This document shows, piece by piece, positions 6,984 through 58,158 of a DNA stretch of 64,000 nucleotides. The position numbers and the translations under genes were made by a program. Positions within the stretch are counted from its first letter, which is position 1. Each line of letters starts with the position of its first letter. The stretch lies in assembly GCA_937965695.1 (NCBI GenBank), contig CALCKW010000012.1, forward strand, positions 62,001-126,000, given 5' to 3'. The notes beneath the pieces were generated by a model that did not search any database, was not told the DNA's origin, and saw only the letters and a list, made by a program, of their open reading frames with translations. The stretch comes from an uncultured Granulosicoccaceae bacterium. Lineage in GTDB: Bacteria > Pseudomonadota > Gammaproteobacteria > CALCKW01.

Positions 6984-7613
6984 ATGGACATACCATTGAA
7001 CCACTCAAAAAACTCCTGGCTCTATTGGGCTGAATCTGCTGAACAGAATAAATCGGTTATCGCAGAAGCCATCAAGCCGTATCTAATTAACGCAAATAGT
7101 GCGCTGGAGCTGGGCAGTGGTACAGGTCAACACGCCGTGTTTTTTGCAGAACAATATTCCATGTTGCAATGGCAACCATCAGAACACGCTGACAACGTAG
7201 AAAAACTAAGAGAAAACTTGCGGCTCCACTCAAAGCCAAATATCCGGGAAGCCATCGTGCTAGACGCCGTGGCCGATCAGTGGCCAACAATGCAATGCGA
7301 CTTATTTTATAGCGCTAACACCTTGCATATTATGTCTTGGATCTCTGTTTGCCAATTGTTCAAACACTTAGGTGCACTACTACAAACGGAACAACGGGCA
7401 CTTATTTATGGACCTTTTCGGTTTGCGGACAGGCCATTTGCTGCCAGTAATGAAGCATTTAACAATCACCTCAAACAAGGCGATCCACTGGCAGGCATTC
7501 GCCCTATTGAAGCACTAAAAAAAGTAGCATCAGAAAATGGTATTTATCTAGAGAAAGCTATGCAAATGCCTGCAAATAACCATGTGTTAGTTTGGCAACG
7601 CACCTCCAGCTGA
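6984..7613 (+). CDS. DUF938 family SAM-dependent methyltransferase
   Basis: The 209-residue product has a methyltransferase motif I (ALELGSGTGQHAVFF, about 39-53) and the DUF938 pattern around it: an N-terminal block with AESAEQNKSVI, then WQPSEHADN and YSANTLHIMSW. The substrate of this family is not established. It is cytosolic, with no signal peptide, and monocistronic. The ATG at 6984 is the first in frame and gives the usual family length of about 200. Confidence 0.88.
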   Translation: MDIPLNHSKNSWLYWAESAEQNKSVIAEAIKPYLINANSALELGSGTGQHAVFFAEQYSMLQWQPSEHADNVEKLRENLRLHSKPNIREAIVLDAVADQWPTMQCDLFYSANTLHIMSWISVCQLFKHLGALLQTEQRALIYGPFRFADRPFAASNEAFNNHLKQGDPLAGIRPIEALKKVASENGIYLEKAMQMPANNHVLVWQRTSS

Positions 7614-7794
7614 ACACGACACTCGAGTAACAATTAATTTACGCAGTGCGCGAAGCTAAACGCCAAATCAACCTGAGCAACCTAATACAACGGGACACCA
7701 GCGTGCTTTTAAAAAGCTGAACGCGTTGTATGCAGTCCAACATTGAAGGAGGACTTCTGAAATCAGATTACATTTAAAGAAGCTGCCGACATCT

Positions 7795-8232
7795 TTAATA
7801 CCCTGGTGTGTTTTTTTCCACCCAACGCGTTTGCCCGTCTTGGAGCGTCTCGCTTTTCCAGAACGGTGCACGAGATTTTAAGGCCTCCATCAAAAAGCGA
7901 TTAGCGTCAAAAGCGGCCGCTCGATGAGCTGACCAAACAGCGGTCAAAACTATCGGCTCAGCTGGATGGATATCACCTACTCGGTGATGAATCAATGTGT
8001 CAATGAGTGGCCACTTCTCTGAAGCCTCAGCTGCAATAGCCGCCAATTCCCGTTCTGTCATGCCAGGATAGTGTTCCAAGGTCATGCCTTGAACATCGTC
8101 ACCTTGGTTGAAATCGCGCATACTGCCGACAAAAACTGCAGTTGCGCCGAAACTGCCACCTAAAAGGCCTTTCTGATAAGCCTGTAAAGCGCACCAAGGA
8201 TCAAAGGGCGCTGGCTCTATAACAACCGCCAT
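7795..8232 (-). CDS. moaE: Molybdopterin synthase catalytic (large) subunit MoaE
   Basis: 145 residues, normal for MoaE. The family features are VGSMRDFNQGD, LEHYPGMTE, IHHRVGDI, HRAAAFDANRFLMEALK and the active-site lysine region APFWKSE. With MoaD it transfers two sulfurs to precursor Z to form molybdopterin. It lies 2 bases after moaD in a two-gene operon and is transcribed away from moaC. Confidence 0.95.
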   Translation of the reverse strand: MAVVIEPAPFDPWCALQAYQKGLLGGSFGATAVFVGSMRDFNQGDDVQGMTLEHYPGMTERELAAIAAEASEKWPLIDTLIHHRVGDIHPAEPIVLTAVWSAHRAAAFDANRFLMEALKSRAPFWKSETLQDGQTRWVEKNTPGY

Positions 8233-8234
8233 TC

Positions 8235-8468
8235 TCAGCCTCCCGTTACAGGTGGAAAGAATGCCACCTCGTCACCGTCCACGACAGGATGTTCCAGCGA
8301 AACAGTCTCGAAGTTGACAGCACACAAAACCGAATCGGCACTACCAAGCTCCCCCGTGCTCGCTTTTAGCACATCGCTAACGCTGCTAACACCATTGGCT
8401 TCGAGCTTCATTTCAGACTGCCCTGCCCATTCGCGCAAGCTGGCGAAAAATTTTACCTTGATGGTCAT
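8235..8468 (-). CDS. moaD: Molybdopterin synthase sulfur-carrier (small) subunit MoaD
   Basis: A 77-residue ubiquitin-like protein ending in VTGG, the Gly-Gly tail that carries the thiocarboxylate. The ATG at 8468 is chosen because AGGTG lies just upstream at ribosome-site distance; the GTG at 8477 sits inside that ribosome site and would add MIR. It is the first gene of moaD-moaE, divergent from moaC with fewer than 100 bases between, which makes a shared promoter region likely. Confidence 0.93.
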
Positions 8469-8563
8469 ACGTATCACCTAAAGCTGTAGTCTTGTTATTA
8501 TCTCGCCCTAGGAGCTCCTGTCACAAGCGAGCAAACCTCTTTTATTCACATCTCGAGGCAAAA

Positions 8564-9040
8564 ATGTCTGATTTGACCCACTTTAACGCCCAAGGTGAAG
8601 CACACATGGTTGATGTCGGCAGAAAAGACCACAGTCACAGAGTCGCCATCGCTGCCGGTGAAATCACCATGCTGGCCTCAACCCTAGAGCTGATCAGCTC
8701 GGGCTCACACAAGAAAGGCGATGTACTGGGTGTCGCTCGTCTAGCCGGCATTATGGGTGCTAAACGTACTGCCGATCTCGTTCCTCTCTGCCATCCCATT
8801 GGCTTGACAAAAGTGGCCGTGGACTTTGAAGTTGATTCTGCAAACAACCGTGTTTTGTGCAAAGCTCGCACCGAATGCAACGGTCAAACTGGTGTGGAGA
8901 TGGAGGCGCTAACTGCCGTGCAAGTATCGCTGCTTACTATTTACGATATGTGCAAAGCTGTAGACAAAGGCATGGTGATGGGCGCAATTCGCCTCACCGA
9001 AAAACGCGGAGGTAAATCAGGGCATTTTTTAGGGTCTTAG
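8564..9040 (+). CDS. moaC: Cyclic pyranopterin monophosphate synthase MoaC
   Basis: 158 residues, the normal length. Hallmarks are [29 protein letters not shown] and [20 protein letters not shown], which holds the catalytic lysine region. It converts the MoaA product to precursor Z in molybdenum cofactor synthesis. The ATG at 8564 follows GAGG and matches the usual N-terminus ([18 protein letters not shown]). Its separation from the moaDE operon and the absence of moaA and moaB here are notable. Confidence 0.95.
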
Positions 9041-9060
9041 GAGTTTCATCTCCGAGGACC
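9033..9060. other. Hairpin between convergent moaC and VF530-like genes
   Basis: GGTCTTAGGAG and CTCCGAGGACC form an 11-bp stem with one wobble and one mismatch and a 6-base loop. The moaC stop codon lies inside it. No T run follows on either strand, so it is not a classic terminator, but it may protect or attenuate both convergent messages. Confidence 0.4.
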
Positions 9061-9061
9061 A

Positions 9062-9304
9062 CTAGGACTTTCGATACGGGTTGTCAGTACTAAACGTTCG
9101 TAAGTAGAGCTCCTCGACTTCCTTTCGCGCCCAAGGTGTTCTTCGCAGAAATTTCAAACTGGACTTCACCGATGGATCGCTGATAAAACAATTAACTTTA
9201 ACTCTCGACGCCAACCCTTCCCACCCATAGTGAACCTCTAACTCTTGCACTATGTTCTCAAGTTTTATTCCGTGCAACGGATTATTAGCTTGTTTTGAAC
9301 TCAT
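9062..9304 (-). CDS. VF530 / DUF2132 family small protein
   Basis: An 80-residue cytosolic protein matching the VF530 (DUF2132) family: [20 protein letters not shown], then [11 protein letters not shown] and a C-terminal block [17 protein letters not shown]. The family has a known fold resembling a DNA-binding domain, but its function is not established. It is convergent with moaC, ending 21 bases from its stop. Confidence 0.88.
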
Positions 9305-51537: not shown

Positions 51538-52293
51538 ATGATTCAGTTAATTTGCCGAAAGCTCCGGCTCCTAACCATCCCTTATCGACGAGCGTGCGCT
51601 TTTCTTCATAAGCTGCCACAGCGGCGTTGCACACTGTGCGACGCTCACGGCCTGAACAATCAGAATCTGTGCCATCCATGTGCAACGGAGTTACCAAGGA
51701 ACATTAATGGCTGTACAGGTTGCGGTGATTTATTCGTTCTCAAACGAACAGGACTTTGCGAAAAATGCCGCAAATCATCACCACTATGGAAGCTCTGCAT
51801 AATCGCCAGTAATTACGAAATACCTGCAAATTACCTTGTTAAACGGTTCAAGTACGCAGGAGATAAGGCCTCAGGGCTTGCTATGGCGGAGTACATGTGG
51901 CAACGCGCCGAAGGTCCCAGAGATGACTTTGAAGGTGCTATTTTTTTAGCCGTGCCTTTACATCGAAAAAGACTCATTGAACGAGGTTTCAATCAATCAG
52001 AGTTCCTGGCAGCGGAGTTGGCAAAGCGCTGTAAAGGGGTTTTGATGACAAAAGTGCTAGTTAGGACTCGCCCAACCTGCCCACAGGCAGGATTGACCCA
52101 GCGGGCCCGCAAGGCAAACATAAAGAATGCCTTTACAATTAGAGACTTACCAGACAAATGCCGAGTCGTTTTGGTTGACGATGTTTTGACTACAGGCAGC
52201 ACGGCGAGTGAATGTTGCAGAGTATTAAGGCGCAGCGGTGTCGACGATTTGACACTGTGGTGTTTTGCTCGGGCAAATGCCCCAATAAATTAA
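51538..52293 (+). CDS. comF: ComF family protein (zinc ribbon + phosphoribosyltransferase fold)
   Basis: 251 residues. N-terminal zinc-binding cysteines (CTLCDAHGLNNQNLCHPC, then CTGCGDLF and CEKC) precede a PRTase fold ending VVLVDDVLTTGSTASECC. ComF-type proteins support DNA uptake for natural transformation; the homologous GntX is linked to gluconate. Here CACCGAG/CTCGGTG arms lie upstream at about 51490-51520. Convergent with the GTPase operon. Confidence 0.9.
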   Translation: MIQLICRKLRLLTIPYRRACAFLHKLPQRRCTLCDAHGLNNQNLCHPCATELPRNINGCTGCGDLFVLKRTGLCEKCRKSSPLWKLCIIASNYEIPANYLVKRFKYAGDKASGLAMAEYMWQRAEGPRDDFEGAIFLAVPLHRKRLIERGFNQSEFLAAELAKRCKGVLMTKVLVRTRPTCPQAGLTQRARKANIKNAFTIRDLPDKCRVVLVDDVLTTGSTASECCRVLRRSGVDDLTLWCFARANAPIN

Positions 52294-52342: not shown

Positions 52343-53983
52343 CTAATCGGCAGCATTCCCTTGAGGTCTCAATGCAGCCAATTCTTTGTAGAGTGCTTTT
52401 GAGGTCACTGGAAGTTTAGCAACAATGGTACGGGCAGCTTCTCGCACGCTTTCACGCTGTTCGTTAAACGCTAATGTGCAACTTTTTGCCTCAGCGGCTA
52501 CTTCAGCCAGCGCACTACCCAGTCCTTGCCGCAAAGCACGTGCAACTGCGGCACTGAGCGATGGCCTGACTTTTTCTCGTAACAGAGCGGGCAATAGCCA
52601 AGCAACACCTAATAACAACACACTATTAATGGCAAAGTTGCCACCTAGGTATTCTCCCGACGCTTCATTGCCCGCGTGAAAACTAATCACTACTCGATAA
52701 GCAATCCAAACTAGGGCTGCAATCGGTGCAACCGCAGCAATAAAAGCGACAGCATTAAACAACCAACGATGCAGGCGGGTGCCCGGACGTGCAAACGCTT
52801 CATTTAACGAATGACGCTGATGTTTGCTGACAATTTCCGAAACACGCTCTGCAAGAGGCCGTAATATTTGCCGCATTGGGCCCAGTGACATGTGCTCCTG
52901 ACCTGCAGAAACAACCAGCCCTGACAGCGCGTCTTGTACCTGCTGCTCTGCGCGGGCATCCCAAACCAGTGAACTTGTATCAGCCGCTGCCAAGGAAGTT
53001 ACGCTTTGTTTGGCACTGAACAATTGACGCCAACCACCCTGTTCGTTCTGGTATTGTCGCGCCAAGGCATTTATCTGCCAAGACAAATCCTCAATGATTT
53101 TTTCACTCTTTTGCTCAAAGCCTTCTGCAAAATCACTATTTACTTTTGACAACGCCAACTCATCACCAAGTGAATCAATACAACCTTCAACACTTGCACG
53201 CAATCGCTCGGTTTGTGCTGCCTCAGCTTGAGCTACCAATAATTGAACATTGTTTTTTTCACCCAACTGTTCGACAGCAGCGCGCAATTGTTCAAAATCA
53301 TCGTCCTCAGCGCCCTCAGCGCCCTCTTTACAAATAGTGCAAAAAACTTGTGGATCTCCAAAACCAGCAGTAATGAGTACTTTTTTAAAATCTGCTAATT
53401 GCTCTGGTTGGCCGCGATCCCACTGGTTTAAAGCAAACATCCATGCGTGCTGATCACCCGCTTCGCGTAACATCTGCCAACCAGCATCGTCTCTGTATCG
53501 CTCAGGGCTGACGACATAAACCACTAAATCTACATAAGGCAACCAACTGAGCACTTGGTCTCGATGCTCAGTGGCCACACTGTCGACATCTGGAGTATCA
53601 ATCCAAACAATATGACTAGAGGCCGCATCGCTGTGCGTGCTCAACCGCACTTTATCTGCGGGAATCTGCTCTGGGAGTTGCGACAGAGAAAGCGATTCAT
53701 GGGCATGAATAGTCACCTCACGTGACGTAGGACGAACGACCCCCGTACGTGCTACCTCTGCGCCCGCCAAACGATTGAGTAGCGAGCTTTTGCCGACACC
53801 GGTTCCACCAAAAAAAGCCACGATCAAAGGCCGTTGGGTAACGCCAGAAAAAAGATGGGCAGGATCTCCGGCTAATTGAGAGTCCAGCTCAACGCCTACG
53901 CCCTTAGTGAGCCAACCATTTTCAATCGCGGAATCGCGCCACTGTTGTAAATCACTCTGCACCTGCTCGATGGAGTTGCTCAC
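52343..53983 (-). CDS. Dynamin-like membrane GTPase (second of pair)
   Basis: 546 residues. GTPase motifs: P-loop GGTGVGKSSLLN (59-70), switch II DTPDVDS (129-135) and NQWD (186-189) in place of NKxD. A long helical middle region follows, and two membrane segments near the C-terminus (about 408-432 and 448-465). This resembles bacterial dynamin-like or YfjP/HflX-unlike membrane GTPases, but not a named family I am sure of. Its start overlaps the end of the other GTPase by 4 bases. Confidence 0.82.
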   Translation of the reverse strand: MSNSIEQVQSDLQQWRDSAIENGWLTKGVGVELDSQLAGDPAHLFSGVTQRPLIVAFFGGTGVGKSSLLNRLAGAEVARTGVVRPTSREVTIHAHESLSLSQLPEQIPADKVRLSTHSDAASSHIVWIDTPDVDSVATEHRDQVLSWLPYVDLVVYVVSPERYRDDAGWQMLREAGDQHAWMFALNQWDRGQPEQLADFKKVLITAGFGDPQVFCTICKEGAEGAEDDDFEQLRAAVEQLGEKNNVQLLVAQAEAAQTERLRASVEGCIDSLGDELALSKVNSDFAEGFEQKSEKIIEDLSWQINALARQYQNEQGGWRQLFSAKQSVTSLAAADTSSLVWDARAEQQVQDALSGLVVSAGQEHMSLGPMRQILRPLAERVSEIVSKHQRHSLNEAFARPGTRLHRWLFNAVAFIAAVAPIAALVWIAYRVVISFHAGNEASGEYLGGNFAINSVLLLGVAWLLPALLREKVRPSLSAAVARALRQGLGSALAEVAAEAKSCTLAFNEQRESVREAARTIVAKLPVTSKALYKELAALRPQGNAAD

Positions 53984-55746
53984 ACCAGCCCTCTCTCTGT
54001 CGTTGCTTGGCCAAGCGCTTCGGCCAAGGAATTGTATTGGATGTTATCTAGTCCGTAGAAGCCGGGTTGATCTGCCAAGCCTCTGGGCAAATTGCCAAGC
54101 TGAACAGCTAGCCCACCTTCTACCAGTAATTTCTCAACACGCTGCAGTTGCAGCTGACGTAGCTCCAACATCACACCGTCAATGTATTTGCCCATCGCAC
54201 CTTCAGTAAGCAAAGAGGTAACGGAAAGCATCGCTGGAGCCAGCGCTAGATCAATCAAGCCCAAACCGCCAGACTTAACGGCTAACGCTACACCGGCGGC
54301 ATCTGCACCAAACCGCGCTACACGCAGGCTATTGAGTACTATCGGTTGCTCCTGTAAACCTTCGTATAGCTTTTGCGCAGCGGCTTCTATTTCCGGTTCA
54401 AAGTCAATTTGATAATCACGAATTTGGTGATCAAAATCAAAACTTAGCCCCTCTCGCTGTTGCCGCAAAACGCCAGCCATGCCTCGCCACCACGCGCTAG
54501 CACCGCCTGCTTCCGCCGCACGGTCCAACGCCGTTTCGCTCAGGCGCGTTAGCGACTGTTGGAACAGGTCCAACAGCAAACGCCGCTCGAGACTATCATC
54601 GGGATCAGTATGCCGATCTTCACCGAGGCCCGTCATGCCCAGTAACTGCCGAGCTGGCCATGTAATTAGCTGTCGAGTTTTGCCAAGCACCCCAGCCACT
54701 GCTGGTATTTCCAGCAATTGTAAGAGCTCGACGAGGCTCCGCTGGAATGTTTCGTCTTGTTGTGGATGTTCTAAGTAGTCACGCTTGTATTGTTTTAAAA
54801 CAGAGTCACAACAATCCTCGACCAACGCTTGCCATTGCGTGGCTGCATTCACTTCAGCCAATAACGGAACACGCCACTGTGGCCAGCCATGGTCAAGCAA
54901 TGACTGCAACTGAGCACGGTGCTCATCTCGAGTGGCTTGCCGCATGATATCGCTGACACTCTTTCTCAGCGCCGTGACGTCGAGCGGCACCTCCGCATTT
55001 TCGCCCAAGCCAGGCTGCCAAGGCAAAACCACTACTTGGGGTTTACTGTCGCTACCCCAGTATTCATCCAAACGACTCAACAAAGAATTCACAACGACAT
55101 CCCGATCGCCATCAGCTACTTTGTTGATACAAATCAATAAGGGGCGGCCCAGCGCTCGAACTAAGTCGAGCACCTCCCAAACCGCTTGATCTGCGTATTT
55201 ATCTTTGCTGACAACCAGTAATGCGGCATCTGCCAATCCAAGCGCGCGCACCACGGATTCGCGATAATCACCGGCGCGCAGCGAATCAAAGTCTGGACTG
55301 TCCCATACTGTTGCTGGTGCAGGTTGCAGTGGGCTGACAACCTCTTCGGCGCTATAACAATCCGCGTCGTCACGCGGCAATTCGGCGACGGCTACTTTTT
55401 TATAGTCAGGGAAGAAACTAGACAACCAGTCACCGCCACCATGCCCCACGTGAAAGCCCTGTGCGTGCATGGTGTATCCTGCCAGCGCGCTAACACCAGC
55501 AGCATTGGCCTCGAGCAACAGATTAACAACCGTACTTTTGCCGGACTGTGTTGGACCAAACACCACCAGTTGTAAAGGGTGGTCTTGGTTTTCCTGATTG
55601 AGTTGACACTTTGCTACAGCAGACTCCGCCAGCTGCAAACCAAATACAGCATCTTCTCGGCTGGGATCAACGCCCACACTTAGTGCGTGCTCGCTACGCG
55701 CTCTCAACCAGCGCAAGGTTTCTGAAATATTTGACGTATCAGTCAT
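53980..55746 (-). CDS. Dynamin-like GTPase (first of pair)
   Basis: 588 residues. The P-loop is GPTQSGKSTVVN (64-75), switch II DSPDFDS (149-155). The expected NKxD appears as NKVAD (208-212), one residue out of register. Helical middle region; a hydrophobic, glycine-rich stretch (about 484-520) may insert into a membrane. It is coupled by 4-base overlaps to ubiA before and the second GTPase after. Sequence is only distantly like the neighbour apart from G motifs, so they look like an ancient pair with different roles. Confidence 0.8.
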   Translation of the reverse strand: MTDTSNISETLRWLRARSEHALSVGVDPSREDAVFGLQLAESAVAKCQLNQENQDHPLQLVVFGPTQSGKSTVVNLLLEANAAGVSALAGYTMHAQGFHVGHGGGDWLSSFFPDYKKVAVAELPRDDADCYSAEEVVSPLQPAPATVWDSPDFDSLRAGDYRESVVRALGLADAALLVVSKDKYADQAVWEVLDLVRALGRPLLICINKVADGDRDVVVNSLLSRLDEYWGSDSKPQVVVLPWQPGLGENAEVPLDVTALRKSVSDIMRQATRDEHRAQLQSLLDHGWPQWRVPLLAEVNAATQWQALVEDCCDSVLKQYKRDYLEHPQQDETFQRSLVELLQLLEIPAVAGVLGKTRQLITWPARQLLGMTGLGEDRHTDPDDSLERRLLLDLFQQSLTRLSETALDRAAEAGGASAWWRGMAGVLRQQREGLSFDFDHQIRDYQIDFEPEIEAAAQKLYEGLQEQPIVLNSLRVARFGADAAGVALAVKSGGLGLIDLALAPAMLSVTSLLTEGAMGKYIDGVMLELRQLQLQRVEKLLVEGGLAVQLGNLPRGLADQPGFYGLDNIQYNSLAEALGQATTERGLV

Positions 55747-56639
55747 GAAAAGAAAGCATAGTGCGCCACCAAGCCAATGAACACAGCCATTCCGGTGTAA
55801 TGATTATTCAGAAATGCCACCAAACACGGCTCCCGCTCTCTGTTTTTAATCAAGCTATATTGATAGAAAACAGTCGACGCCGCGACAGCTAACCCTAAGT
55901 AGAAAACCAAACTTAACTCGAGTGCCAACCCCACACCCATTAATCCAACAAGCACGACAACTTGGCACAACATCACAATGAGCACATCGTAGCGGCCAAA
56001 CAAGATAGCTGTAGACTTCAGGCCCAACTCTAAATCGTCATCGCGGTCCACCATCGCGTACATGGTGTCGTAGGCGACCGACCAAATGATGGACAATATA
56101 AATAAGGACCAAGCAATCGCGGGCACCGTGTTTGTCACGGCTGCAAACGCCATAGGAATGCTCATGCCAAAAGCTGCACCCAGAACAACCTGTGGCCAGT
56201 AGGTAACTCGCTTACAGAAGGGGTAAATGATTGCCAGTAATACGGCGACAAATGACAGCTGAACGGTCAAAGTATTTGTCATCAAAACTAACCCGAAGGC
56301 GAGCAACATTAACAACGCCGTCAAAACCAGCGCTTCTTTGGCGGTGACTCGCCCAGTGGTCAAGGGCCTTGCATGCGTGCGTTTCACCTTGCCGTCAAAT
56401 TCTCGGTCGGCATAATCGTTGATGCAGCAGCCTGCGGCTCGTGTTAACACGGTGCCTAAGCAGAAGATAATGAACAGCTTCCAACCCGGCCAGCCCTCAG
56501 CTGCAATCCAAAGGCCCCAAAGCATGGACCAGCCAAGCAACAAAATACCGATCGGACTGCCCATACGAGTGAGCTGTATGAAATCGTCACGGCGTGCCCA
56601 GTAAGACGGGCGGCTTAGAGCATTGCTGCTAATGTTCAT
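55743..56639 (-). CDS. ubiA: 4-hydroxybenzoate polyprenyltransferase UbiA
   Basis: 298 residues with about eight membrane segments. Both Asp-rich prenyl-diphosphate motifs are present: CCINDYADREFDGKVKRT (Asn74, Asp75, Asp78, Asp82) and YDTMYAMVDRDDDLELG. PIGILLLGWSMLWGLW is typical. It attaches the prenyl tail in ubiquinone synthesis. Heads an operon with two dynamin-like GTPases; ubiC is not seen. Confidence 0.96.
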   Translation of the reverse strand: MNISSNALSRPSYWARRDDFIQLTRMGSPIGILLLGWSMLWGLWIAAEGWPGWKLFIIFCLGTVLTRAAGCCINDYADREFDGKVKRTHARPLTTGRVTAKEALVLTALLMLLAFGLVLMTNTLTVQLSFVAVLLAIIYPFCKRVTYWPQVVLGAAFGMSIPMAFAAVTNTVPAIAWSLFILSIIWSVAYDTMYAMVDRDDDLELGLKSTAILFGRYDVLIVMLCQVVVLVGLMGVGLALELSLVFYLGLAVAASTVFYQYSLIKNREREPCLVAFLNNHYTGMAVFIGLVAHYAFFS

Positions 56640-56784: not shown

Positions 56785-58158
56785 ATGACAGACTTTCATT
56801 ATGACTTAATTGCCATTGGCGGTGGCAGCGGCGGACTCTCAGTCGCGCAGCGCGCAGCTAGCTATGGCGCCAAGACCCTTGTTATTGAGCGCGACAATCG
56901 CCTCGGTGGCACCTGTGTCAATCGCGGATGTGTCCCTAAGAAAATCATGTGGTACGGCGCGCAGACTCTGGAGAATATTCACAAGGCAAAGGGCTACAGC
57001 GTCGATGTAGAGCTTAAGGGAGCCGACTGGGGCGCACTAGTCGGCAAGCGCGAAGCAAATATCAGCGGTATCAACAACTGGTATAACGGTTACCTCTCCA
57101 ACGCGAATGTAGATGTTGTTCACGGCGACAGCTATTTCGACGGCCCAAACCGCATCAAAGTGGGTGACCAATTGTACACAGCCGATCATATTGTTATTGC
57201 ACCAGGTGGCGCTCCAACAGTGCCTGATCTTCCTGGCGCTGACCTAGGCATGACCTCTGACGGTTTTTTCGAGTTGGTCAGTATGCCAAAGCGAGTGGCC
57301 GTCGTCGGCGCTGGTTACATTGCTGTTGAGTTAGCTGGAGTTTTACGCGGCTTTGGGGCTGAGACAGACCTAATGATTCGCAAAGATTTTGCGCTGCGAA
57401 GTTTCGACCCGATAATTCAGACTACCGCAATGGCGACCATGCAAGCGCAGGGAATCAAAGTTCACACACAGTGCACGCCGACCGCGCTCAACCGGACAGC
57501 CGACGGTATCATCGTCGAAACACAAAATGGTAGCTTAGGCGCTTACGATGCAGTGATCTGGGCGATTGGCCGTCACCCGCTAACCGGCTCATTGGCGCTA
57601 GACACTGCAGGTGTTGAAGTTAATGCGCAAGGATATATACCTACCGACAAGTACCAAAAGACCAACGTTGATGGTATTTACGCCATAGGCGACGTTACAG
57701 GACAAGCACAGTTAACACCTGTGGCCATTGCAGCTGGACGTCGACTCGGAGATCGCCTCTTCGGCGGAAAAACTGAAGCGCACTTAGACTATGAAAACAT
57801 TCCCACGGTGGTGTTTACTCACCCTCCAATAGGTATTGTTGGTATGACCGAGCCAGAGGCGCGCAAAGCATTTGGTGAAGATAAAGTGACCGCTTACCAG
57901 ACTCAATTTGGGCCGATGGTCGATACCTTTGAAGACAACCCGCACCCGACTGTGATGAAGCTAGTCACCGTTGGAGAAGAAGAGAAAGTCGTCGGTATTC
58001 ATATGATGGGTACGGGCGTTGATGAGATGCTGCAAGGATTTGCGGTGGCTCTGAAAATGGGTGCGACAAAAGCCGATTTTGACAATACAGTGGCCATACA
58101 CCCTACAAGCAGTGAAGAGCTTGTCACTCTAAAGCCAGACCATATCGTTAAAAACTAA
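56785..58158 (+). CDS. gor: Glutathione-disulfide reductase
   Basis: 457 residues. FAD start [20 protein letters not shown], redox-active Cys44/Cys49 in [18 protein letters not shown] site [15 protein letters not shown] with MIRKD after it, and dimer-interface HPTSSEEL with the catalytic His. Reduces GSSG with NADPH in the cytosol. Monocistronic; a long hairpin follows. Confidence 0.96.

Follow-up and report, generated by a model that had tools for sequence, protein, structure and literature searches.

What might two neighbouring GTPase genes be doing directly downstream of ubiA, a gene for ubiquinone synthesis? The question is raised by a 64,000 nucleotide stretch of DNA, referred to here as the window, from an uncultured Granulosicoccaceae bacterium. 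On the minus strand of the window, ubiA, GTPase 1 and GTPase 2 are arranged head to tail, in that order. GTPase 1 (positions 53980-55746) is a 588 amino acid open reading frame (ORF) for a dynamin-like protein (DLP) with no clear transmembrane pair. GTPase 2 (52343-53983) is a 546 amino acid ORF for a dynamin-like, mitofusin-like protein with a predicted membrane anchor. We conclude, with a probability of roughly 0.75, that the two genes encode a heterotypic bacterial dynamin-like pair, anchored GTPase 2 and peripheral GTPase 1, acting on the inner membrane. The pair is real, widespread and of an already known sort, and the presence of ubiA has an ordinary explanation. Studies of bacterial dynamin-like pairs are so far few.

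Both GTPases have a predicted dynamin-like fold

GTPase 2 scores above the cut-off of the Pfam model Dynamin_N (35.8 vs 27). GTPase 1 scores 16.4 vs 27 for Dynamin_N and exceeds the cut-off of the general MMR_HSR1 model alone. No NCBIfam model was over its cut-off, either among the 16 listed for GTPase 1 or among the matches listed for GTPase 2 (25 of 33). We aligned each window protein with its relatives, using 53 of 63 GTPase 1 loci (alignment A3) and 64 of 80 GTPase 2 loci (A4) at 300 bits or more. Near-copies and partial rows were removed by hand. Dynamin_N matched, at an E-value of 0.01, all 65 rows for GTPase 2 and 47 of the 54 rows for GTPase 1, including both window proteins.

AlphaFold2 models, built from the same alignments, had a mean pLDDT (predicted local distance difference test) of 87.7 in each case. 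The predicted template modelling score (pTM) was 0.85 for GTPase 1 and 0.79 for GTPase 2. In the GTPase 2 model, short N-terminal helices precede the G domain (residues ~47-240), which is followed by trunk helices and then the C-terminal parts. The order of parts in GTPase 1 is the same. Long helices span residues 273-325, 417-465 and 517-551 of GTPase 1, and residues 243-271, 367-398, 403-440 and 476-522 of GTPase 2.

Foldseek searches of the PDB ranked BDLP first for both models. With GTPase 1, Campylobacter DLPs were ranked second and third, IniA ninth and LeoA 27th. With GTPase 2, IniA was second and the Campylobacter DLPs were third and sixth. OPA1, DRP1 and mitofusins surround the bacterial DLPs in both lists. 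Using VIA-align, GTPase 1 matched Fzo1 (9kfd) over 316 residues, with a Z score of 18.8 and a root mean square deviation (rmsd) of 5.7 Å. GTPase 2 matched yeast Fzo1 (9kfe) over 293 residues (Z 17.6, rmsd 3.5 Å) and MFN1 (5yew) over 289 residues (Z 17.0, rmsd 3.8 Å). Hence, as modelled, GTPase 2 appears to superpose on Fzo1 and mitofusin-1 from its first helix through to its last. LeoA was not among the best 50 VIA-align rows of either GTPase. The rows that reach both ends of a model are those of Fzo1, MFN1/2 and EHD; with GTPase 2, a match to IniA at 10 Å rmsd does so as well. These cover 252-316 residues, compared with ~150-190, mainly in the G domain, when the match is a Rab, septin or translation GTPase. 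Since the long matches take in helices at both ends, we identify a dynamin neck. Helices from both sides of the G domain form this neck and trunk in the AlphaFold2 secondary structure, and the Fzo1 superpositions run over residues 1-581 of GTPase 1 and 1-534 of GTPase 2. The preliminary description of the locus, made from the DNA letters, had proposed two dynamin-like GTPases. The fold agrees: long helices flank each G domain, the top Foldseek matches are bacterial DLPs and the dynamin-type helical stalk, sought in both models, is present.

The same description held that only the P-loop and switch II are alike between the two proteins. This proved too narrow. BLASTP aligns them over 143 columns (29% identity, E 2e-7) and a profile-profile alignment covers 160 G-domain columns (E 5.3e-18). 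There is also a third common motif, VVS[KP][DE][KR]Y[AR]D...W. Hence, the G-domain alignments and the third motif suggest that GTPase 1 and GTPase 2 are diverged relatives across the G domain.

A predicted membrane hairpin in GTPase 2 and a hydrophobic tip in GTPase 1

Two C-terminal membrane helices had been proposed for GTPase 2 and hydropathy confirms them. Predicted transmembrane helix 1 (52697-52753, minus strand) comprises residues 411-429, with a hydropathy of 2.28. Helix 2 (52580-52636, minus strand) comprises residues 450-468, with a hydropathy of 2.13. It is followed, in the model, by a 47-residue helix running back. By a simple hydropathy rule, 45 of the 65 rows have two transmembrane helices, 17 have one and 3 have none. 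On average, there are 3.7 lysine or arginine residues among the 20 positions ahead of helix 1, 4.7 among the 20 that follow helix 2, and 0.5 in the loop between. The sign of this positive-inside bias is kept in 65/65 rows. Hence, both ends of the hairpin should be cytoplasmic. The sequence of GTPase 2 is thus consistent with a mitofusin-like, two-helix membrane hairpin at the tip of the trunk.

For GTPase 1, a single hydrophobic patch had been described, and this is confirmed at residues 495-513. Here, mean hydropathy over the 54 rows peaks at 1.49, a borderline value for membrane spanning. Further peaks are found at residues 162-180, in the G domain, and at 337-355. The patch is part of a conserved stretch (residues ~465-529), with an invariant P504-A505 and an invariant glycine, which sits where GTPase 2 has its hairpin. 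In the model, two tip helices (468-492 and 497-515) are predicted, with pLDDT values of 56-76 over residues 481-520. Confidence is lower still at residues 361-380, a segment that, going by the model, may belong to the trunk tip too. We read residues 468-515 (54202-54345, minus strand) as a hydrophobic trunk tip and putative paddle, resembling that of BDLP1.

Motifs of the two G domains

The P-loop of GTPase 1, GPTQ[AS]GKS (55534-55557, minus strand), has G, P, T, Q, G, K and S invariant in 54/54 rows. Its G3, or switch II, motif is D[TS]PDFDS (55282-55302, minus strand), invariant in 54/54 rows except for the T/S alternation. The equivalent elements of GTPase 2 are GGTGVGKS (53786-53809, minus strand), invariant in 65/65 rows bar one T to S change, and D[MTA]PD[IFVM]DS (53579-53599, minus strand), with D, P, D, D and S invariant in 65/65 rows. 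Overall, the P-loop lysine and serine, switch I threonine, G3 aspartate and G4 asparagine are invariant in every row of both alignments.

The genome encodes a third, solo dynamin-like GTPase of 475 amino acids (L031:5934-7361, contig C24 of G000). This carries DSPG at G3, shows hydrophobic stretches, by eye, within the C-terminal half and is the strongest of four Dynamin_N matches. By eye, two other Dynamin_N matches of the genome resemble Der and Era.

The two genes are largely inherited together

We scanned 369 genomes of the class, using a 5-row profile for GTPase 2 (A2) and the 54-row profile for GTPase 1 (A3). GTPase 2 was found in 29 genomes, GTPase 1 in 27 and both in 26; the two matches are adjacent in 24 of these 26. 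One GTPase alone was found in four genomes. Of these, G196 is 58% complete, the piece in G306 is at a contig end, G343 has a weak match and G366 is a 670-contig assembly.

A profile scan of named genomes identified 232 relatives, of which the best 80 were kept as named loci. These are mainly from Methylococcaceae, Granulosicoccaceae, tubeworm symbionts, other Gammaproteobacteria and Planctomycetota. Both GTPase genes are present in 67 of the 80. In 60 of the 67, the genes overlap or are no more than 30 bases apart, with 19 overlapping by exactly 4 bases. In one locus the distance is 92 bases. Note that spacings were measured from longest-ORF starts, and some overlaps are hence too large. We conclude that the GTPases, distinct DLPs from neighbouring genes, are largely inherited together as a pair.

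Other searches returned little. A single-sequence scan of genome contigs confirmed none of 31 stretches. A phylum-wide draw gave 1/299, the window's own genome; the 21 genomes listed are its own or of the same class, so this says little on other classes. In a plasmid collection, tblastn found no match to GTPase 1. For GTPase 2, it found a Nonomuraea record, considered below, and a weak match to a dynamin-family protein of Bacillus velezensis (E 1e-2).

Among the carriers is a named strain, Methylococcus capsulatus (L115). Hence, membrane remodelling by an anchored-plus-soluble dynamin pair could be tested in a named strain. The many Methylococcaceae matches prompted us to consider a link to the intracytoplasmic membranes of methanotrophs. 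We rejected this because the pair also occurs in organisms not named as methanotrophs; in the open-licence literature we found nothing on the pair and methanotroph membranes. Nor did we find a description of the pair in open-licence literature on Methylococcus, Granulosicoccus, Planctomycetes with Gammaproteobacteria, or ubiA; tubeworm symbionts were not searched for.

Some loci deserve separate mention. A contig labelled Methyloversatilis, a betaproteobacterium (L086), has a pair scoring almost like that of Methylocaldum (L072) and is perhaps mis-binned. In a Methylococcus-like contig, GTPase 1 is spread across two frames (L095:8389-9995) beside an intact GTPase 2; the gene is whole in a close relative (L098). 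Seven Planctomycetota loci (L082, L097, L102, L114, L123, L135 and L142) have recurring genes downstream of the pair (clusters 16, 17, 18, 26 and 36). By eye, this set includes a look-alike of an exosortase-type membrane protein.

A proposed mechanism and the evidence against it

In our reading, GTPase 2 would be a permanent resident of the inner membrane, held there by the trunk-tip hairpin, and its G domain would be cytoplasmic. The peripheral partner would be GTPase 1, a protein of the same build in which a paddle-like hydrophobic tip replaces the hairpin. Most probably, anchored GTPase 2 would then recruit GTPase 1, and orient it, at the cytoplasmic side of this membrane. Contacts between the two, modulated by nucleotide, would tether, cluster or curve the membrane. 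The work done might be division, repair or the shaping of internal membranes. Note that the fold and the membrane anchor come from prediction, and the motifs, the gene layout and the pairing across genomes from computation. Contact between the GTPases, GTP hydrolysis and membrane remodelling are what we infer. The structural precedent for heterotypic action is the Campylobacter DLP pair, which forms a 2:2 tetramer that binds and tethers membrane (PMC6104087).

Several observations weigh against this reading. Query-normalised TM-scores are low for the rows listed (0.21-0.39), which we attribute to hinged domains held at differing angles. Many unrelated G-domain proteins reach Z scores of 15-17 on the G domain alone, and the VIA-align match of GTPase 1 to IniA spans the G domain only. 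It is also not certain, from sequence, that GTPase 1 is free of an anchor: by the hydropathy rule, 31 of the 54 rows have at least one transmembrane segment (22 rows have one, 7 have two and 2 have three) and 23 have none. For the Campylobacter pair, no detectable effect of nucleotide on membrane binding is reported (PMC6104087).

The arrangement of the genes also varies. They are 2.5 and 10 kb apart in two of the 26 class genomes that have both (G259 and G354). In 6 of the 67 two-gene loci, all six linked to ubiA, they are split by 0.6-4.5 kb. Hence, tight co-translation is not essential. A full GTPase 1 was not seen in 13 of the 80 loci. In four of the 13, GTPase 2 is at a contig edge (L078, L097, L102 and L129). 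In four Granulosicoccaceae loci (L113, L131, L137 and L139) the comF side alone was seen, and the remaining five are L070, L075, L076, L077 and L140.

Finally, the canonical dynamin motifs are DxPG at G3 and (T/N)KxD at G4, and neither GTPase has this combination. G3 is DxPD in every row of both, with aspartate replacing glycine. At G4, GTPase 2 has N-x-x-D in 65/65 rows, where the lysine position is lysine in one row and glutamine or histidine in 58. All 54 rows of GTPase 1 retain Asn-Lys, and 17 of them also have the aspartate two positions further on; it is missing from the window protein. Hence, given the G3 aspartate and the mostly missing G4 aspartate, it is not certain that GTPase 1 hydrolyses GTP in the normal way. 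GTPase 1 may, by its motifs, be the less canonical nucleotide binder of the two. We class the pair as dynamin-like by fold and not canonical by motif. Retention of aspartate in place of glycine at G3, common to GTPase 1, GTPase 2 and the two Nonomuraea proteins, poses a concrete question for GTPase enzymology.

The pair is unlikely to be dedicated to division

An alternative is that the pair serves cell division, stabilising the septal ring in the manner of Streptomyces DynA/DynB. DynB has two transmembrane segments, has DynA as a partner and stabilises Z-rings (PMC8748795). Compared by description, this is like the window pair: two partners, one with two transmembrane segments (predicted for GTPase 2). 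A further parallel is the Nonomuraea record, an 11.85 Mb sequence called a plasmid. Here, two frames (L144:4771-7464 and 7461-9083) overlap by 4 bases, as in the window. By eye, two hydrophobic segments are present at the C-terminus of the second protein, and the first has no such pair. The motifs DxPDxDS and [KR]Y[AR]D occur in all four proteins. The Nonomuraea layout looks like that of DynA/DynB, a likeness resting on layout and description. In the PLSDB gene table, the region of this actinobacterial pair (L144:4771-9083) is without a feature.

Against a role in division, profile matches between the window and Nonomuraea pairs are limited to the G domain (164-205 columns), with E-values of 1.4e-16 and 7.8e-18 for GTPase 2, and 3.6e-15 and 5.9e-12 for GTPase 1. 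The first Nonomuraea protein also differs by a long, low-complexity N-terminus. By eye, no division gene was recognised among the recurring neighbour clusters, in which not all neighbours are annotated. Knock-out of the Campylobacter pair gave no obvious division defect (PMC6104087). Furthermore, the occurrence of both GTPases in just 26 of 369 class genomes is too patchy for a core role. We therefore consider a septal function unlikely.

The ubiA link looks like inherited gene order

The ubiA gene (55743-56639, minus strand) encodes 4-hydroxybenzoate octaprenyltransferase. Its product scores 314.7 bits against the equivalog model TIGR01474 (cut-off 275.45) and, of two matches in the genome, is the only one above the cut-off. 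The 4-base overlaps noted earlier at both joints are correct: ATGA (55743-55746, minus strand) joins the ubiA stop to the GTPase 1 start, and GTGA (53980-53983, minus strand) joins the GTPase 1 stop to the GTPase 2 start. By eye, a ribosome-binding-like GAGAGGG lies upstream of the GTPase 2 start, and no ribosome-binding site is visible before that of GTPase 1 in the window sequence. Hence, in this genome, translation of GTPase 1 probably relies on ribosomes that re-initiate once ubiA is finished. In three genus relatives, the ubiA stop is 4 to 7 bases ahead of GTPase 1, with no overlap (start codons by eye). A glutathione reductase gene, gor (56785-58158, plus strand), is divergent from ubiA and scores over its cut-off. 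At the other end, a ComF/GntX-like gene (51538-52293, plus strand) is convergent with the GTPase pair and scores under curated cut-offs.

Confinement of the ubiA link to this genome would have counted against the preliminary reading. Instead, ubiA directly precedes GTPase 1, on the same strand, in 13 named loci, plus the window and G001. Twelve of the 13 are Granulosicoccaceae by name, and the other (L090) is named only as Gammaproteobacteria. Note that the 13 include two relatives from the genus, G002 and G003, whose contigs appear here as L092 and L093. In all 13 clade loci that show GTPase 1, the spacing from ubiA ranges from a 4-base overlap to ~48 bases; three longest-ORF starts of GTPase 1 extend further back than this. 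In the tree of GTPase 1, a single branch sets apart 13 of the 54 rows, namely the window plus 12 of the 13 ubiA-linked loci. The remaining one (L128) was outside the tree, having been removed by hand as a near-copy. Support for the branch is 95/79, and 96% of 200 bootstrap trees require a single change. At the other named loci, neighbour clusters for the best 80 of 232 relatives did not place ubiA beside the pair.

We also clustered the neighbours in 84 sequences (the 80 loci, L027, L029, L030 and the window). GTPases aside, the only clusters to recur in over 10 sequences are ubiA, gor, comF and OmpA-like. Both gor and comF are encoded on the other strand and keep the same places in 13/13 ubiA-linked loci. 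No gor was recognised next to ubiA in G001 (L027). Since gor and comF are as conserved as ubiA, the block appears to be inherited together, and adjacency to ubiA singles out no function. Hence, the position of ubiA next to the GTPase pair in Granulosicoccaceae looks like inherited gene order. The pair is probably transcribed downstream of ubiA in this family.

The preliminary description left the tie to ubiquinone synthesis as a puzzle. One solution would be that the pair works with UbiA, shaping or marking the parts of the membrane in which ubiquinone is produced or used, with translational coupling of the genes matching their dose to UbiA. In keeping with this, ubiA is directly upstream in 13/13 clade loci and in the window's genus, and GTPase 1 has no visible ribosome-binding site of its own. 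In loci with inserts between the GTPase genes, GTPase 1 remains with ubiA and GTPase 2 with comF. Also, a member of the ubiA cluster is found five genes downstream at L087, a Methylococcaceae locus. These points are outweighed by the single origin on the tree, by the other named loci having no ubiA at the pair, and by the equal retention of gor and comF, which are transcribed oppositely. We consider a shared function very improbable and rejected a functional reading of the neighbourhood, which is unsupported beyond one clade.

Six Granulosicoccaceae loci (L105, L122, L127, L128, L133 and L141) have one to four opposite-strand genes between GTPase 1 and GTPase 2. By eye, the inserts include a peroxiredoxin-like gene; a 600 amino acid protein of unknown kind is also encoded.

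A bolder version of our reading has a similarly small chance of being right. Here, the proteins would belong to a broad, asymmetric, mitofusin-like family with DxPD at G3, spanning Gammaproteobacteria and Planctomycetota, with kin in Actinomycetota. The permanently anchored GTPase would recruit a soluble GTPase of relaxed nucleotide specificity. In Granulosicoccaceae, their dose would be tied translationally to quinone-making capacity, and the respiratory membrane would be shaped. If true, asymmetric pairs would join or shape inner or intracytoplasmic membranes.

Least credible of all is that these are septin-, Era/Der- or immunity-like GTPases with unrelated helical parts: GTPase 1 does match general GTPases (Der/Era) best by sequence, with Dynamin_N under its cut-off, and Rab and septin G domains reach Z 15-16 with GTPase 2, but structural matches reaching both ends are to Fzo1, MFN1/2 and EHD (plus IniA at 10 Å for GTPase 2), over 252-316 residues, and Dynamin_N is matched by 65/65 and 47/54 rows, so that an Era/Der-type identity for GTPase 1 was dropped on the evidence of fold.

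Comparison with known dynamin-like systems

The preferred reading, an anchored GTPase 2 with a peripheral GTPase 1, has several relatives among described systems. Most bacterial DLPs are encoded as side-by-side pairs (PMC6104087). Cj-DLP1 and Cj-DLP2 of Campylobacter jejuni (5owv and 5oxf) are likewise the products of such a gene pair. Unlike these, GTPase 2 of the window has a predicted membrane-spanning hairpin. PDB sequence searches with either GTPase did not have Cj-DLP1 or Cj-DLP2 among the matches listed. In mycobacteria, IniC may regulate IniA or hetero-oligomerise with it (PMC6715688). A dynamin-like protein has also been published for another gammaproteobacterium, Pseudomonas pseudoalcaligenes (PMC6344628).

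BDLP of Nostoc (2j69) and mycobacterial IniA (6j72) are in the top ten Foldseek matches of both GTPases. They differ in having another kind of tip and share 13-14% identity with the window proteins, which have aspartate in place of the dynamin glycine at G3.

The build of GTPase 2 is paralleled by mitofusin and Fzo1 (5yew, 9kfd, 9kfe and 9kff). In each, an N-terminal helix is followed by the G domain and trunk, and a final helix returns to the neck. The superpositions cover 289-303 residues at 3.5-3.8 Å, with 14-15% identity. A membrane hairpin at the trunk tip, predicted in GTPase 2, is a further likeness; note that the solved mitofusin and Fzo1 chains are truncated and do not include it. GTPase 2 differs in being bacterial and, if our reading is right, in having a partner that is not anchored.

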